From Alphaproteobacteria bacterium (lineage in GTDB: Bacteria > Pseudomonadota > Alphaproteobacteria > Rs-D84 > CACZYB01), in contig WQWV01000001.1 of assembly GCA_009785175.1 (NCBI GenBank), positions 124,963-163,447 of the forward strand: 38,485 nucleotides of DNA, given 5' to 3'. Shown here one piece after another: positions 7,397 to 38,244 of this stretch. The notes under the pieces were generated by a model. It was not told the origin of the DNA and searched no databases. It saw nothing but the letters and a program-made list of their open reading frames with translations. Numbering within the stretch: the first letter of the stretch is position 1; the number at the start of each line of letters is the position of its first letter. The position numbers were made by a program, and so were the translations under genes.

Positions 7397-8251
7397 ATGC
7401 AAAACCCGAAATTGTGCGTCTGCGGAAGTCATAGATATACCGACATAGACCAGCTTGCCTGCGCCGTTGCTTATGCCGAGCTATATGATTGCGCCACTTT
7501 TTTACCGGGCCCGTTCAACGCCACTATCCCGGATAGCGTCCGCAAATGGGATTTTATTATATCGACTACCCCCCCCCATGGGGCCGAGGAATTCGTGCTT
7601 GTTGATTACAGCTATCCCGAGGTCATTCCGCCCGAAATCCCGCTTGATAAGATAACCAAAGTCTATGACCACCACACCGAATTCGAGGAGTATTGGGGCC
7701 CCCGCGGGCAAATCGAATTCATAGGCGCCTGCGCGACCATGATTTACGAACTATATGAACAGGGCGGCAAAATTCCCCCCCCCACGATAGCAAACCTCCT
7801 CGCCACCGCGATTTTCGCGCAAACGCTTAATTTCAAGTGTTCCATTGCGACCGATCGCGACCGCCGGGCGTTTGAAAAGTTGCGAAAGTTCACGTCCCTA
7901 CCGCCGGATTGGGTAAAAATGTATTATACCGAGGTCGAGGCGGACGTCATGGCCGACCCGAACGGAGCGATTAAAAACGACATGAAGACATTCGAGGCCG
8001 GCGCAACCCAAATCGGCCAGCTTGAGTTATACAACGCCAAATCCGTGCTTAATAAGATTGAGCCGTTCGAAAACGGTTTCGTAATATTGGTCGACATAGG
8101 GGAGGGCGTCGATTACCTTTTAACTTCGAACCCCCGTTGGCAAAAACGTTTAAGCAATGAGTTGGGCGCAAAATTTACCGGTAGTATTGGCATTACGGAT
8201 AAACTATACCTTAGAAAAGAAATCATAAAAATCATGGATATCAAAAGATAA
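7397..8251 (+). CDS. DHH/DHHA2 phosphoesterase, divergent relative of Mn-dependent inorganic pyrophosphatase
   Basis: HRYTDID, KVYDHHTEFEEYWG, GACATMIYELYEQGGK, C-terminal KNDMKTFEAGATQIGQLEL; aligns by eye with the PpaC-like ORF 32663..33577. Confidence 0.8.
   Translation: MQNPKLCVCGSHRYTDIDQLACAVAYAELYDCATFLPGPFNATIPDSVRKWDFIISTTPPHGAEEFVLVDYSYPEVIPPEIPLDKITKVYDHHTEFEEYWGPRGQIEFIGACATMIYELYEQGGKIPPPTIANLLATAIFAQTLNFKCSIATDRDRRAFEKLRKFTSLPPDWVKMYYTEVEADVMADPNGAIKNDMKTFEAGATQIGQLELYNAKSVLNKIEPFENGFVILVDIGEGVDYLLTSNPRWQKRLSNELGAKFTGSIGITDKLYLRKEIIKIMDIKR
7569..7577 (+). repeat. C9 mononucleotide tract inside CDS 7397..8251
   Basis: actaCCCCCCCCCatgggg, encodes TTPPHG. Confidence 0.97.
7775..7783 (+). 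repeat. C9 mononucleotide tract inside CDS 7397..8251 (second tract)
   Basis: aaattCCCCCCCCCacgata, encodes KIPPPTI. Confidence 0.97.
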
Positions 8252-21228: not shown

Positions 21229-21888
21229 ATGAGCGCTGCTACATTTTTCATGCTTTTGATTTTCGGCCTGGTTCTTTACGCCGCCTATAAGACGTTCAAG
21301 GACGATCCGCCCGAACCTATGCCCTCGGCCGGAGCCAAGAAGTGCGCTTATGCCAAGCCTATCTCGAACCTTGCGGCCGACAAGCCCGAGCCTGGGCCCG
21401 CAGGAATCAACATGGGGGCCCGTATAACGGACAATATGGTCGAGGTTATGAGGCACGACGCGAACTTTGCCCCGCAACGATTCCTTGAGGACGCGCGCGA
21501 CACCTTCGCGAAAACCTTGGCTGCGTTCGAGGCCGGCAAGATCGATACTATGTCCGATCGCCTTTCGGCAAGCATACTTGCACACCTCGAGGCATCGTAT
21601 GCTGCCGCAGCGAAATCCAAAAAATTCCCCAAAACCGAAATCGTCCGGTTCAAGCGGGTTTCGATCAAGGATACCCGGACGGACAAGAACTTTGCGGATA
21701 TCGATGTGCTTTTTGAAACCGAGCAGACGGCGGTGATTACGGACGCCAAGGGCAAGATCATAGAAGGCGACGAAAACCAAATTCTTATGATGTCCGATAT
21801 CTGGACATTTTCGCGCGACCTGCGTTCGAACGCCCCCTGGGTGCTAAGCGCTATTAAAGCAGAAGAGATTAAGGAAGAAAAGAAATGA
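21229..21888 (+). CDS. Tim44-domain protein
   Basis: N-terminal TM; FAPQRFLEDARDTFAKTLAAFEAGKIDTMSDRLSASILAHLEASY...DIWTFSRDLRSNAPWVLSAI; divergent from secB. Confidence 0.88.
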   Translation: MSAATFFMLLIFGLVLYAAYKTFKDDPPEPMPSAGAKKCAYAKPISNLAADKPEPGPAGINMGARITDNMVEVMRHDANFAPQRFLEDARDTFAKTLAAFEAGKIDTMSDRLSASILAHLEASYAAAAKSKKFPKTEIVRFKRVSIKDTRTDKNFADIDVLFETEQTAVITDAKGKIIEGDENQILMMSDIWTFSRDLRSNAPWVLSAIKAEEIKEEKK

Positions 21889-23840
21889 GTCAAAGCTATT
21901 CGGCAAAAGACATAGAAATCCTCGAGGGCCTCGACCCCGTCCGCAAACGCCCGGGCATGTATATCGGCGGCACGGATTCGACGGCGATGCACCACCTGGC
22001 AAGCGAGATTTTGGACAACTCCATGGACGAGGTAGGCGCCGGCTTCGCACGCGAAATAAGGGTCGAATTGTTGCAAAACAACCGGGTTCGCATCTCGGAC
22101 GACGGTCGCGGCATACCTGTTGACGAGCACCCGAAATACCCAGGCAAGTCGGCTTTGGAAATCATCTTCACAACCCTTCATTCGGGCGGAAAGTTCAGCG
22201 GCAAGGCATATCAGACTTCGGGCGGTCTGCACGGCGTAGGATCATCCGTAGTCAACGCGCTTTCCATAGACATGTCGGTAGAGGTCGCCCGCGGCGGAAA
22301 AATATATCGTCAAACCTTCAGCCGTGGCAAGCCTACCTCGAAACTCCAGGTCATAGGCACCACGAAAAAAACCGGCACCACGGTCGAGTTCACTCCCGAT
22401 CCTGAAATCTTCGGCAACGTTGGGTTCGACCCGCAAAAGCTTTACCGCATCGCCCGCTCGAAGGCATTCCTGTTCAAAAACGTGCTTATCAAATGGCGCA
22501 CGGAGGTCGAGAAGGAAAACGTGCCCGCCTCCGCCGATTTGCTTTTCCCCGAGGGTATAAAGGACTTCCTTAGGAACACGATCAAGAACCGCCCGCTTGT
22601 CATCAAGGATATATTCTATGCCGAATCCGACCTACTTGATGAAAAGGGTAGGGTCGAGGTCGCGCTCTCCTGGGTCGACACCACGCGTGAAGAAGGGCTC
22701 ACCAGCGGCTTCATAAGCTCGTATGTGAACACCATTCCCACACCCGAGGGCGGCACTCACGAGTCCGGCATGAAATCCGCGATTCTCCGCGGGCTGAAAT
22801 CGTTTGCCGATACCGTGGGCGACAAGAAGTTCGGGCAAGCGCTTACCGAGGACGTGTTCGACGACGCGGTATGCGTCTTATCCCTTTTCTACCGCGACCC
22901 GCAGTTCCAGGGGCAAACCAAGGATAAGTTCTCAAGCGCCGATGCCACGCGCCTTGTCGATAACGCGATAAAGAATTACTTCGACTTCTTCCTTGCCCAG
23001 AATCCGGCGGCTGGCAAAGACCTGCTTGCCTATATCACCGAAAAATGCGAAGCCAGGAACAAGCTCAAGAAATTCAAGGAAACGCTCCGAAAAACACCCA
23101 CAAAACGCCTCAAACTCCCCGGCAAGCTTGCCGATTGCTCGAACAAAGACCGCACAGGCACGGAATTGTTTATTGTCGAGGGCGATTCCGCGGGCGGCTC
23201 GGCTAAACAAGCCCGCGACCGCGCGACGCAAGCCATTCTACCCCTCAGGGGAAAAATCCTCAACGTCGCAAGCGCGTCCAAAGACAAGCTTGCCGCGAAC
23301 AAGGAAATCCAGGATTTGATAGAGGCCATCGGCGCCGGCACCGGCCGCGAATTCGATGTCGCCAAACTAAGATACGACAAGATCGTGATCATGACCGACG
23401 CCGATGTCGACGGCGCGCACATAGCCACGCTCTTGATGACCTTCTTCTTCGAGTGCATGCCCAAACTTATCGAGGGCGGCCACCTCTTCATCGCCTGCCC
23501 GCCGCTTTACCGCATAACGGACAACAAGACGTATGCCTATGCCATGACGGACGAGGAAAAGGCGACCATCATAGAAAAGAAATTCAAAAGCAAAAAAGTA
23601 GACGTTTCCCGGTTCAAGGGCTTGGGCGAAATGATGCCGGCCCAGCTAAAGGAAACGACTATGAATCCGAAAACCCGCATGCTACTCCGCGTGGAACTGC
23701 CGCTTGCTACCGAAGAGGGGCAAGAGGACTACCGCGATACGAAACAGCTTGTCGAATCCCTTATGGGCAAAAACGCCTCCGAACGCTTCAGGTTTATCCA
23801 AGAAGGCGCCAAGTTCGGCATCGGGAATTTGGATATCTAA
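21885..23840 (+). CDS. parE: DNA topoisomerase IV subunit B
   Basis: [81 protein letters not shown]; 651 aa. Confidence 0.93.
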   Translation: MSQSYSAKDIEILEGLDPVRKRPGMYIGGTDSTAMHHLASEILDNSMDEVGAGFAREIRVELLQNNRVRISDDGRGIPVDEHPKYPGKSALEIIFTTLHSGGKFSGKAYQTSGGLHGVGSSVVNALSIDMSVEVARGGKIYRQTFSRGKPTSKLQVIGTTKKTGTTVEFTPDPEIFGNVGFDPQKLYRIARSKAFLFKNVLIKWRTEVEKENVPASADLLFPEGIKDFLRNTIKNRPLVIKDIFYAESDLLDEKGRVEVALSWVDTTREEGLTSGFISSYVNTIPTPEGGTHESGMKSAILRGLKSFADTVGDKKFGQALTEDVFDDAVCVLSLFYRDPQFQGQTKDKFSSADATRLVDNAIKNYFDFFLAQNPAAGKDLLAYITEKCEARNKLKKFKETLRKTPTKRLKLPGKLADCSNKDRTGTELFIVEGDSAGGSAKQARDRATQAILPLRGKILNVASASKDKLAANKEIQDLIEAIGAGTGREFDVAKLRYDKIVIMTDADVDGAHIATLLMTFFFECMPKLIEGGHLFIACPPLYRITDNKTYAYAMTDEEKATIIEKKFKSKKVDVSRFKGLGEMMPAQLKETTMNPKTRMLLRVELPLATEEGQEDYRDTKQLVESLMGKNASERFRFIQEGAKFGIGNLDI

Positions 23841-23932: not shown

Positions 23933-23941
23933 GGGGGGGGG
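23933..23941 (+). repeat. G9 mononucleotide tract, intergenic
   Basis: tataaaatgcgcGGGGGGGGGtgcgcc, just downstream of a TTGAGG-16 bp-TATAAA promoter-like sequence. Confidence 0.97.
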
Positions 23942-25281: not shown

Positions 25282-25761
25282 CTAGGATCCCTTGATTAAA
25301 ATATTTTCCCGGAAAGCTTTCAAAAGCGCCGTATATCGCTTGTCCTGATAGCAATCGCCTTTGCTCACATTGTTGTTGTGGCTTTTAGAATTCATTATGA
25401 AATATACAAGAGAAATATAATCTTGCCTGTTGTCGATTATAAGTTGCGGGATATCGACGTCGTTTAAGTTTAATTCTCCGATGGCCAAGGCCGCGGTATC
25501 TTCTATTTCGGCAAGCTGTTTGCAATCGGGAAACATCGTGGCAAGGTCGCGCCCGGCCTCGGGCTTAAATCTTGTGCTCTTCGTTGTGCAGGTATCGAAT
25601 CTTGGGCAGGATTCTTTGGTGCATTTAAGGTCTATCCTGGTTTCCCGTTCGATGCTTGTGCTAAGCTCTTTTATTACCAAGGCGACAGTTGCCACCGGCT
25701 TGCCCAAGTGAAAATTTACGCGGGATCTTTCGCCGCTTCCGGTTTTGACTTTCATCCGCAT
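25282..25761 (-). CDS. Cys-rich uncharacterised protein, paralogue of 24791..25255
   Basis: DLKCTKESCPRFDTC...RDLATMFPDCKQLAEIED. Confidence 0.7.
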   Translation of the reverse strand: MRMKVKTGSGERSRVNFHLGKPVATVALVIKELSTSIERETRIDLKCTKESCPRFDTCTTKSTRFKPEAGRDLATMFPDCKQLAEIEDTAALAIGELNLNDVDIPQLIIDNRQDYISLVYFIMNSKSHNNNVSKGDCYQDKRYTALLKAFRENILIKGS

Positions 25762-25791: not shown

Positions 25792-25822
25792 ATTATAGAC
25801 AGAACGGGGGGGGGTATGTCAA
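25792..25822 (-). promoter_or_regulatory. Sigma70-type promoter with a C9/G9 tract in its spacer
   Basis: Reverse strand TTGACA(25822-25817)-taCCCCCCCCCgttctgtc (19 bp)-TATAAT(25797-25792), 30 bp upstream of the ATG at 25761. Confidence 0.8.
25806..25814 (+). repeat. G9 tract (C9 on the transcribed gene's sense strand) in promoter spacer
   Basis: agaacGGGGGGGGGtatgtc. Confidence 0.97.
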
Positions 25823-27559: not shown

Positions 27560-28486
27560 TCATAAACCAAGCGCGTGGCGCCCATCACGCGAAAACCCGT
27601 CCGCATCGCGCTGGGGCAGTTGGAATAACGATCCCAGCCGTAGCTCGGCTTCTTCCGTATTATAACGCTCCCACCCGGCATGATTGGAAAATGTCATCTC
27701 CGAGAACATGATATCGTCGTTAGCAAGTTCGTAAAAATCGACCCGCACATGGTTTATGCCGGCCGCCAGCTTTTCGGCCAGCTCTATCATTAAATCTAAT
27801 TTTTTAGGTTTCGGCGCCACAGGCGCAAGAGGAGAGCTTATCTGCTGAAATCCGGCATCGCCCCAATCGCGCGAATAATATCGTTCGCCCATGCTTTGTT
27901 TTGCGCCGAACGAGTGCTGCCATGAGGCGGTGCGAATGAATTCTACCCGTCCGTTAAAACACATCATCATAACCTCTATATCTGTGCGTATGTCAAGAAG
28001 CTCGCGCGCTATGATCTTTTGCGGGATAAGCGAGTAATGCATTTCTCCGTCCGCACGCCCGTATACATGGCCAAGCCAGCCGGACATTACCCGTGCGGCT
28101 TCGCCCTTATCAAGCCTTGACTTACCCCCCCCCACGACTATATTGCGGCCCGAGCTGGCGTTGTGCTGTAGTATGAATCTTTCAGGAAGCGCGTCCCAAT
28201 CTATGTCTTCCGGCTTGTCGTATGCGCCGTATATCGCCGGCAGATATTGCTCGCCTATTTTATCGGCCACGTATTCGCGAACGGCAAGCTTGTCTGTGCA
28301 TTTGCATTTAAGCAAGGTAGGGTCGAACATCATCGCCCAGCGTATTTTGTCGTTGAAGCGGGCAAGCTCTTCGGTCGGTCTCCGTCCTGTTTTGTGAAAA
28401 AATAGATCGGACAGAAGCTCGGCCTTAGCCCTATTGCCCATCTGGTCCCATAGCGTCATTCTGATATTAAGGAACATTTCGTTCAT
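27560..28486 (-). CDS. TupA-like ATP-grasp protein (copy 1), probable surface-polysaccharide modification
   Basis: RFNDKIRWAMMFDPTLLKCKCTDKLAVREYVADKIGEQYLPAIYGAYDKPEDIDWDALPERFILQHNASSGRNIVV...VDFYELANDDIMFSEMTFSNHAGWE. Confidence 0.8.
   Translation of the reverse strand: MNEMFLNIRMTLWDQMGNRAKAELLSDLFFHKTGRRPTEELARFNDKIRWAMMFDPTLLKCKCTDKLAVREYVADKIGEQYLPAIYGAYDKPEDIDWDALPERFILQHNASSGRNIVVGGGKSRLDKGEAARVMSGWLGHVYGRADGEMHYSLIPQKIIARELLDIRTDIEVMMMCFNGRVEFIRTASWQHSFGAKQSMGERYYSRDWGDAGFQQISSPLAPVAPKPKKLDLMIELAEKLAAGINHVRVDFYELANDDIMFSEMTFSNHAGWERYNTEEAELRLGSLFQLPQRDADGFSRDGRHALGL
28125..28133 (+). repeat. C9 tract (G9 on coding strand) inside TupA-like copy 1
   Basis: Encodes VVGGGKSRLD. Confidence 0.97.
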
Positions 28487-28503: not shown

Positions 28504-28532
28504 ATTATAGCAGAGGCAAATACCGAAGGCAA
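28504..28532 (-). promoter_or_regulatory. Promoter upstream of TupA-like copy 1
   Basis: TTGCCT-17 bp-TATAAT on the reverse strand. Confidence 0.65.
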
Positions 28533-28617: not shown

Positions 28618-29566
28618 TTACAAACCAAGCGTCCGCCGTCCCTCCTCCGAAAACCCGTCCGCATCGCGCGGGGGCAGTCGGAACAATAGCCCAAGCTTGT
28701 AATCCGCGCCGACCGGCTCATACACTTCGCCACCCGTCCAGTTATAAAAGGTCATCTCGGCAAACCGAACCTCGCCATTTACCAATTCAAAAAAATCGAC
28801 CCGCACATGGTTGAATCCGGCCGCCAACTTCTCCGCAAGCCCTATCATCAAATCAAGCTTTTCCGGCCGAGGCGTAGACGGCGCAAGCGGCGTGTTCACC
28901 TTCTGAAACCCTGCATCTCCCCATTCGCGCGAGTAATACCTCTCTCCCGCGCACTTCTTGTGCCCCAACGTATGCGAGTATATGACGGTGCGTATATATT
29001 CCACTCGGCCGGCAAAACACATGAAAAGCACTTCCCGGTCGGCGCGGATATCCATCAACTCGCGCGCTATGATTTTCTTCGGCATAAGGCTATAGGCCAT
29101 CTCGCCCTTGTTTCGGCCATAAACCGATCGCGCCCACCGCCGCATAGCGCGCATCGCCGCCCGCTGGTCGAGTTGGCGTCTGTCTTCTACTATTATCTGC
29201 CGCCCGGAACTGGCGTTGCACTGTAAAATAAATTTATTGGGAAGCCCCGCGAAATCGACATCTTCGGGCCGCTCGAACACACCGTATAATTTCGCAAGAT
29301 ACTTTTCCCCGATCCGCTCCGCTACGTATTCCCGCACCGCGAACTTGTCCGCGCACTTGATCTTAAGGGGTGTGTTGTCGAACATCATGGACCAGCGAAT
29401 CTTGTCGTTGAAACACCAAAGCTCGTCGGTGGAACGCTTTCCCGTCTTTTGCCCAAATACGTTTTTAAGAAGCCAAATCTTTAATTTTACGGGCAAATAC
29501 CCCCCCCCATAGGGACATTTTTACGTTTATGACTTCGTTTGCGATCTTGCTTAAAACCTTTGACAT
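28618..29566 (-). pseudogene. TupA-like ATP-grasp protein (copy 2), frame interrupted at a G9 tract: phase-OFF gene or assembly indel
   Basis: SD-led ATG at 29566 gives MSKVLSKIANEVINVKMSLWGG and shifts frame at G9 (29500-29508); the downstream frame PVKLKIWLLKNVFGQKTGKRSTDELWCFNDKIRW... is intact to 28618. Confidence 0.75.
29500..29508 (+). repeat. C9 tract (G9 on coding strand) near the 5' end of TupA-like copy 2
   Basis: gcaaataCCCCCCCCCataggg. Confidence 0.97.
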
Positions 29567-29692
29567 TCCGAATTCCTCTTTTGGTGATTTTACCCCAATC
29601 GCCGCTTAAAATCCACTATAAAATAAGGCGTTTTTTTCTTGCCTTTGCCCATGCGATTTGCTAGGATTTCTCCGAATAAAACGAAGGAGTAA

Positions 29693-32125
<2,433 letters not shown>

Positions 32126-35478: not shown

Positions 35479-36225
35479 CTATGCCCGCCCGCCGTCGGCG
35501 ACGATGGTTATGGCGTTAAGATAGCTTGCGTCCTCGCTTGCAAGGAATCGGACGATTTTCGCGATTTCTGCCGGCTGGGCGATACGTTTTAGCGCGACTT
35601 TCTCGATAACTCCGGCCATGTATTCCGGCGCAAGGTCCTTGTTCATGTCGGTGTCGACCCAATCGGGCGCCACGGAGTTTACGCGAACCGACGGCGCGAA
35701 TTGCCGCGCAAGGTTTTTCGTAAGGTTTATTATGCCTGCCTTCGATGCGTCGTATCCGACCGAGAAAGGGGACACGGCGTCGATTCCGTTGGTCGAGCTT
35801 ATATTGACTATGCTACCCCCCCCCATCGCGGCCATGTGTCCGCCGAAATATTTGGAGACAAGCCACGTGCCGATAAGGTTGTTGTCAAGCGACCTGCGCC
35901 AATCCTCGACCGTGTGGTCGTCCCAGTCCTTGTCTATTGCTATGCCCGCGTTGTTGACGACGATATCTATGCGCCCGAACTCGGCGACCGACTGCGCGAA
36001 CAGGTCCCGCACCGAAGCCTCGACGCTTATGTCCGCGGGCACGGCAAGGACTCGGACGCCATATTTGGATTCCAACATCTCCTTGACTTCGTGCAGAAGC
36101 CGCACGGATTGCTCGTCCGGCAAATCGTCGATTATGACGTTTGCGCCAAGTGAAGCGAATTCAACCGCGCAAGCCCGCCCAATTCCGCGGGCAGCTCCGG
36201 TGATAAGCGCTACTTTGCCCTTCAT
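35479..36225 (-). CDS. Short-chain dehydrogenase/reductase
   Basis: MKGKVALITGAARGIGRACAVEFASLGANVIID, VVNNAGIA, GGGSIVNISSTNG, YDASKAGIINLTKNLA. Confidence 0.95.
   Translation of the reverse strand: MKGKVALITGAARGIGRACAVEFASLGANVIIDDLPDEQSVRLLHEVKEMLESKYGVRVLAVPADISVEASVRDLFAQSVAEFGRIDIVVNNAGIAIDKDWDDHTVEDWRRSLDNNLIGTWLVSKYFGGHMAAMGGGSIVNISSTNGIDAVSPFSVGYDASKAGIINLTKNLARQFAPSVRVNSVAPDWVDTDMNKDLAPEYMAGVIEKVALKRIAQPAEIAKIVRFLASEDASYLNAITIVADGGRA
35816..35824 (+). repeat. C9 tract (G9 on coding strand) inside the SDR gene
   Basis: Encodes AAMGGGSIVNISS. Confidence 0.97.
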
Positions 36226-37181
36226 TGCTCGTCCTCGAAGTAAAGTTTCAACGCCGTGCGGCCAAGCTCGATATAGTCCTCGTTCTCGCTGTTGTTCTGA
36301 CTCGAAAGGTGCTTCCAGCGGATAGACCCGACCATCTCCATACAGGCACAGCCCAGCGCGAACTTGGCAAGGTATTCAAGTTCGATTGGCTCGAGTGTTC
36401 CGTATTTTTGGTACATCTCGGCCACGACCTTGGAAATCTTCTGCATGCTTGTGCGGCCGTCGAAGCAAAGGTGATAGATGATAACGGCAAGGTCGTATAT
36501 GCGGGGATATATGTTTCCGGCCGAGAAGTCGATAAGGAAAATCTTGCCGTCGCGCCCGCGCATGACGTTGGTTTTTATGATGTCGCGATGGCAGAAGCAG
36601 GTCGGAAGCGCCTCGACCGGCACGGTGTCGAACTCCTCCATGGCAAGCGTTGCAAGCGCGCGGTCCTCTGGGCTCAGGAAGGACAGGGCCTCCTCGAACG
36701 TCTTGTGCATGTTCCGCACGTCGTAATAATTGAAGTCGATTTCAGGGTATTTTTTGCCAAGCTTTATGCGGTTGATTTTCGCCGTCTGCTCGCAAATGAA
36801 TTCAAGCACTTTGTTGGTGGGAGCGGCGCCCAACTGGTAAAACGTCATACCGTCGACGAAGTCCATCATTACCATAGAAAGGCCGGAATCCGAAAACATT
36901 ATCCCGTCCTCGGTGTGATAAAGGGTAGGGCTTGCGATGTCGGATTCGATGACTTTGTTAAGCACGGCGATATATCGCTCGATATCGATTGCCGAACGGA
37001 AGCTGGCGAAGATCTTAAGGACATATTTACCCCCCCCCATGGTGGAAACCTTGAGGTTATAGTCCTCGTATCCCGCCTCGATAAGCTTGAACTTCATCAT
37101 CTCGCCGACGCCGTATGCGGCGCACGCCCGGCGTATTACCGGGGCAAGATCGCCTTTGAAGTTCAGTCGGGCTTCATACAT
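36222..37181 (-). CDS. APH/homoserine-kinase-II-like phosphotransferase
   Basis: MGGGKYVLKIF, CFCHRDIIKTNVMRGRDGKIFLIDFSAGNIYPRIYDLAVIIYHL. Confidence 0.87.
   Translation of the reverse strand: MYEARLNFKGDLAPVIRRACAAYGVGEMMKFKLIEAGYEDYNLKVSTMGGGKYVLKIFASFRSAIDIERYIAVLNKVIESDIASPTLYHTEDGIMFSDSGLSMVMMDFVDGMTFYQLGAAPTNKVLEFICEQTAKINRIKLGKKYPEIDFNYYDVRNMHKTFEEALSFLSPEDRALATLAMEEFDTVPVEALPTCFCHRDIIKTNVMRGRDGKIFLIDFSAGNIYPRIYDLAVIIYHLCFDGRTSMQKISKVVAEMYQKYGTLEPIELEYLAKFALGCACMEMVGSIRWKHLSSQNNSENEDYIELGRTALKLYFEDEQ
37030..37038 (+). repeat. C9 tract (G9 on coding strand) inside the APH-type kinase gene
   Basis: Encodes STMGGGKYVLKIF. Confidence 0.97.
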
Positions 37182-37189
37182 TTTGTCTT

Positions 37190-38077
37190 TTACCGTTTTT
37201 TCTCGAGAAGCTTTTTGCGCGCTTCTTCGGACGTATGGGCGGGGGTATTTTTACTTTTGTATCCAAGTGCGGCAAGAGCTTCGGCGGCCGATACTTTCTT
37301 TTCGCTCTCGAATCCCTCGGGCCAGTATTCGCGGAACACCTTGCGTATTGCATGCTCGCCGTTTTCATCAAGCATCTTATATCCGTTATTTTGGAATTCG
37401 ACCGCGAACCCTGCGATAATTTCGCGTTTGGAGTGGAAGGTGGCCTCGTTGTCCTTTCCGTCCTTGTATTTGAAATCGTATATCGCTCCGTTCGAGTCGA
37501 ACCAAACGCTGTGGAGCTTGTTGTTTACGACAAGGTTTTCCCATCCGTATTTCATGCGAAGTTGCGAAGGCGATCCGATCTCGGGGTGCTCTGACAATAG
37601 CGCGTCAAGCGCTTCCTTGTCCATCGACATGATTTTCGCACCGCGGTAGCGTTCGGGATTGATGCTGCCCGGATTTTTACCTCCGTTTATGTGCATGTCG
37701 ACCATAGTGGGAACCCTATGACGGTTGTCGCCATAACCATAGCGTATATAGGCCTCGGTGTTTGGCGTCAACACTCCGCGCCCGTCGTCAAGGACAATGA
37801 TAAGCGTTTCTGCTTTCTCTGCCTCTTTCTCCATAGTGCTTGTCCCCAGAAGATATCTAAGCTCCGGCAGGTCATGATTTTCATCATTAATATTGAATTC
37901 CTTGTTGCCAAGGCGGTTTTTTTGCATGCTTTCATTATTATGGAAACTCTCTACGACCGCGTCCATCATATCAAGCGAATTCCTATCTCCGGTTGTTTGG
38001 GCCATGCCCTGTTGAAGCCAGCTTAGGTCTTTAAGGCGCTTGTGGTCTTTGTTATAGGTCGATTGCACATATATCAT
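37190..38077 (-). CDS. Uncharacterised protein, first gene of a five-gene operon
   Basis: 295 aa ORF with AAGGAG before the ATG; 8-bp gap to the kinase gene. Confidence 0.75.
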   Translation of the reverse strand: MIYVQSTYNKDHKRLKDLSWLQQGMAQTTGDRNSLDMMDAVVESFHNNESMQKNRLGNKEFNINDENHDLPELRYLLGTSTMEKEAEKAETLIIVLDDGRGVLTPNTEAYIRYGYGDNRHRVPTMVDMHINGGKNPGSINPERYRGAKIMSMDKEALDALLSEHPEIGSPSQLRMKYGWENLVVNNKLHSVWFDSNGAIYDFKYKDGKDNEATFHSKREIIAGFAVEFQNNGYKMLDENGEHAIRKVFREYWPEGFESEKKVSAAEALAALGYKSKNTPAHTSEEARKKLLEKKR

Positions 38078-38235: not shown

Positions 38236-38244
38236 CCCCCCCCC
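38236..38244 (+). repeat. C9 tract, intergenic, upstream of the five-gene operon
   Basis: cctataTACCCCCCCCCgcgag. Confidence 0.97.

Follow-up and report, generated by a model that had tools for sequence, protein, structure and literature searches.

Within the 38,485-nucleotide stretch analysed here (the window), the minus strand carries a gene, TupA1, whose body (28618..29496) matches the TupA-like ATP-grasp family PF14305 over the whole domain (E 6e-23; 82 bits versus a curated cut-off of 25; profile positions 2-240 of 241). Gene callers would start TupA1 at a TTG (29494..29496, minus strand), from which a body frame of 292 aa is open and which lies 3 nt past a run of nine Gs (29500..29508, minus strand; C9 on the plus strand). 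The preliminary description had placed the true start further upstream, at an ATG (29564..29566, minus strand) preceded by AAGAGGA, and had read the gene as out of frame at the assembled tract length. Both points held: coordinates, peptides and lengths were all as described, the tract begins 58 nt after the ATG, and the Shine-Dalgarno-like AAGAGGA (29574..29580, minus strand) stands 7 nt upstream of it. TAAAAT (29587..29592, minus strand), directly upstream of this ribosome-binding site, may be a -10 element; no good -35 for it was seen in the upstream sequence. A role of the tract itself as promoter spacer was considered and rejected, TTGACA being absent at the right distance.

Translated in silico from the ATG at the assembled G9, TupA1 yields MSKVLSKIANEVINVKMSLWGGVFARKIKDLAS-stop, a putative OFF product of 33 codons and a stop (29465..29566, minus strand). 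The body frame is rejoined at G8 or G11, as had been predicted, with products of 315 aa and 316 aa, respectively, and also at G5 (314 aa). In contrast, G6, G7, G10 and G12 lead to an early stop (25-34 aa; 32 aa for G6, 25 aa for G7 and 26 aa for G10), so that a change of one G toggles the predicted product between 315 aa at G8, 33 aa at G9 and 26 aa at G10.

The TupA1 start and its relatives

TupA1 has an intact paralogue, TupA2 (27560..28486, minus strand; 59% identical), whose alignment begins at TupA1 query residue 11 (MNEMFLNIRMTLWDQ...) and whose N-terminus, NIRMTLWDQ..., agrees with the quotation in the earlier work. Contig C15 carries a third copy (48% identical), with the equivalent N-terminus MFEFYKILLKLKFRML..., and a relative from the same order, L202 (51% identical; MNKIIGRIRFRLL..., MNKIIGRIRFRLLQRR...), likewise has an equivalent N-terminus. 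All three carry roughly 17-27 residues ahead of the point that matches the TTG start, and these homologous N-termini support the upstream start of TupA1. A close orthologue for comparison of the tract was found in none of 201 genomes of the order (best match approximately 52% identical), and the congener G001 and G002 yielded none either.

A TTG-initiated TupA1 would lose the N-terminal segment only and keep the entire Pfam domain. Some enzyme may thus still be made at G9, and "OFF" would then be a leaky rather than a null state. As TupA2 has a promoter-like element of its own (TTGCCT-17-TATAAT, 28504-28509), its expression could survive premature termination in TupA1. From its family name, TupA1 may be a ligase of cell-surface polymer synthesis, with a putative role in the modification of a surface polysaccharide or peptide.

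Poly-G tracts as a genome-wide class

Each G/C run in the window is either 1-5 or exactly 9 nucleotides long. On the minus strand, G9 tracts lie in frame in TupA2 (VVGGGKS, 28125..28133), in an SDR gene (MGGGSIVNISS, 35816..35824) and in an APH-family kinase gene (MGGGKYVLKIF, 37030..37038); a further G9, followed by TATATA, is found upstream of gene 37190-38077 (38236..38244), and a C9 occupies the spacer of a TTGACA-19-TATAAT promoter upstream of ORF 25282-25761 (25806..25814). The plus strand has two C9 tracts in frame in one DHH-family gene, both encoding Pro runs (7569..7577 and 7775..7783), and a G9 in a short intergenic dispersed repeat (23933..23941), which recurs in identical form on contig C50. 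Intergenic repeats dispersed over the window (23933) and C6 6778, C21 15925, C22 931 and C23 7208 follow the pattern ttaa-G9-cgc...gcg-tagctataaat and have the tract at one edge.

The window also encodes two GyrB-type proteins (21885-23840 and 29699-32125). One, of 808 aa and with the GyrB insert/hook, is likely GyrB, and the other, of 651 aa, is probably ParE. At 65-70% identity, the relatives of the 651-aa protein belong to Alphaproteobacteria-type MAGs; two of these carry the label Rickettsiales, and at least one was recovered from the gut of an animal.

Over the whole genome (1,135,683 bp), G/C runs of 5, 6, 7, 8, 9, 10, 11 and 12 nucleotides numbered 755, 70, 5, 11, 121, 25, 2 and 1, respectively, while A/T runs decayed smoothly with length. 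The 149 G/C runs of at least 9 compare with approximately 0.06 expected by geometric extrapolation, which excludes a chance origin. The same peak was seen in 613,513 bp of G001, a genome of the same genus (321, 16, 1, 1, 66 and 8 runs at lengths 5 to 10, and one at 12). Two members of the family, G005 and G006, had 22 and 31 tracts of exactly G9 versus 0 in others of their genus, which suggests rapid gain and loss of the trait. Where coding signal is strong on both flanks (12 tracts), the assembled length keeps the frame in 11, so that a tract does not always mark an OFF gene. A fixed motif G9T was rejected: a T follows 105 of the 149 tracts, but many G001 tracts have a C in this place. We are inclined to attribute the preference for T chiefly to TAnnnT -10 elements and codon context. 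Loss of mismatch repair as the cause of tract instability was likewise rejected, since MutS and MutL are both present in the genome.

Many tracts stand in promoters. Approximately 57 of 160 (all tracts of at least 8) lie between TTGACA-like and TAnnnT elements of sigma-70-like type, as at 25806-25814 in the window and at sites on contigs C2-C55, and 32 of 49 examined G-strand promoter tracts have a start codon 26-74 nt further on that is preceded by a ribosome-binding site. The pattern TTGACA-N(0-11)-G9 occurred 49 times in the genome versus 0 for a reversed-pattern control; G001 has 18 such sites, and two genomes from other genera of the order, G192 and G197, have 22 and 12. Such promoters are enriched separately in these latter two, and most members of the order have none. 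A 17-bp spacer was found in 2 of 54 tract promoters versus 60 of 172 tract-free TTGACA promoters (p ~1e-6), and in G001 in 0 of 18 versus 62 of 121 (p ~1e-5). The modal spacer of tract promoters is 18 bp in both species, from which the loss of one G gives 17; either these promoters are mostly in a low state, or the optimum for a poly-G spacer is 18. Just past the -10, many tract promoters carry TGTC(t/a)A (e.g. C5 12844, C36 5547 and C4 51099), which matches TTGACA imperfectly in inverted orientation and might be an operator for one common regulator. We tentatively propose, with rather less than even confidence, that poly-G length serves this lineage as a stochastic regulator across the genome: of approximately 150 tracts, a third would sit in -35/-10 spacers, including those of metabolic-looking genes. 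Nearly all of these would be kept 1-2 bases away from the 17-bp optimum, and slippage by a single base would then turn promoters up despite the mismatch-repair genes.

Copies with open and closed frames, and the predicted state of TupA1

Related genes were caught in different states. Two similar signal-peptide genes of the genome differ by one G, C1 110575 being open at G10 (344 aa) and C1 89043 closed at G9 (18 aa); in silico, the latter frame is rejoined at G10. In G001, several copies (L194 on C35, L148 on C4, L145 on C2 and L167 on C14) represent a family of small, probably secreted proteins that contain Cys (NYYTCTACA...) and have signal-peptide-like starts; the tract directly follows the start (ATG AAC AAA AAG TGT AC-Gn), and one copy is ON at G8, one ON at G10 and the rest OFF at G9. 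The G8 copy, C35 5153, is open (181 aa), and others have G9 and stop after approximately 10 codons. In a sister group, C21 3719 is open at G10 (220 aa), and C2 7532, C14 21623 and C5 13587 are closed at G9. Repeats with near-identical flanks also differ in length, with 9 versus 10 Gs for C18 12447 and C24 8114 and 9 versus 8 Gs for C49 56 and C55 2871. TupA1, closed at G9 and open at G8 or G11, fits this set of switched copies. Given copies that differ by tract length, and sisters that are ON at G8 or G10 and OFF at G9, the G9 of TupA1 would be one phase of a reversible switch.

We thus regard TupA1 as a translationally phase-variable gene, one of approximately 150 probably hypermutable poly-G loci, coding and promoter, and give this reading a probability of roughly 0.72. 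Replication slippage would add or remove a G in the tract, which lies 58 nt into the reading frame. A ribosome starting at the ATG (29566) would read through into the ATP-grasp enzyme if the tract is G8 or G11; at G9, the assembled length, or at G10, translation would stop after approximately 26-33 codons, and the enzyme would be absent or made only weakly from the downstream TTG. Slippage at this tract and loss of activity at G9 are both inferred.

That downstream TTG (29496) could itself be the true start, or a leaky one, with the G9 pairing with the anti-Shine-Dalgarno sequence, in which case the tract would tune expression rather than switch it. The 292-aa frame that opens at the TTG covers positions 2-240 of the PF14305 profile, and the tract ends just 3 nt ahead of it; this very proximity would leave only part of the G run at the normal distance, and the upstream ATG has both a good ribosome-binding site and N-terminal residues homologous to those of TupA2, the C15 copy and L202. 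We consider internal initiation unlikely. The assembly bears on a different reading, according to which the true tract is 8 and TupA1 simply intact. The genome is a metagenome-type assembly in 58 contigs, and poly-G lengths are prone to assembly or consensus error, but the 11 of 12 strongly coding interior tracts that are in frame indicate that lengths are mostly right, the peak at 9 recurs in a second genome, and it is limited to G/C runs. We consider a length error improbable. As the earlier work had suggested, phase variation is favoured over an isolated assembly indel by the spectrum peak at 9, its presence in the congener, the ON/OFF sisters and the repeat copies of differing length.

Two further readings leave the assembled sequence as it is. 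With the G9 run inside the reading frame and the frame off by one base, transcriptional slippage might yield some in-frame transcripts from unchanged DNA; sister genes fixed at an in-frame G8 or G10 point instead to change at the DNA level, and we hold slippage by the polymerase to be very improbable as the explanation. Decay of TupA1 into a pseudogene, frameshifted by chance in a homopolymer, would accord with the intact paralogue TupA2 that adjoins it. Against this, the rest of TupA1 is an open frame that shows coding signal and encodes a complete domain, and the sole lesion falls in a tract of the kind found throughout the genome, which makes decay scarcely credible.

Relation to known poly-G systems

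Phase-variable poly-G tracts of Campylobacter are mostly 9 (53%) or 10 (26%) long (PhasomeIt, PMC6321876), with 5-81 phase-variable genes per strain and 77% of tracts in ORFs (PMC6321876). The system described here resembles the Campylobacter LOS/capsule contingency loci in its poly-G tracts within reading frames, the peak at 9-10, the surface-structure genes and the mixture of ON and OFF states. It differs in belonging to an alphaproteobacterium with MutS and MutL and a GC content of approximately 52%, and in its 149 runs of at least 9 in 1.14 Mb, about a third of them in promoter context. In Treponema pallidum, the poly-G of tprL is mostly 9 and varies from 7 to 11 in vivo (PMC7864442); in Neisseria porA and T. 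pallidum tp0126, a poly-G between -35 and -10 alters spacer length, with 17 bp being optimal for the tp0126 promoter (PMC7864442). While porA, tp0126 and tprL are few loci, approximately 57 tracts stand in promoter context within this one genome, and TupA1 has a coding-type tract, unlike the promoter type of porA and tp0126. A literature search on the name TupA found no phase-variable member, and nothing relevant was found on poly-G phase variation in Alphaproteobacteria in the literature searched. The mechanism is known; apparently unreported in that literature are the lineage, the tract number and the promoter bias.

Together, these observations suggest that random gain or loss of a G probably switches many genes of this organism ON and OFF. 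With a genome of approximately 1.1 Mb, it would have one of the denser repertoires of poly-G switches known to us, and TupA1 adds a likely phase-variable surface-sugar gene from a barely studied, gut-type alphaproteobacterial order. In two species, moreover, tract promoters are consistently displaced from the 17-bp optimum, and this provides a simple, testable prediction on how promoters switch outside the classic mucosal pathogens.
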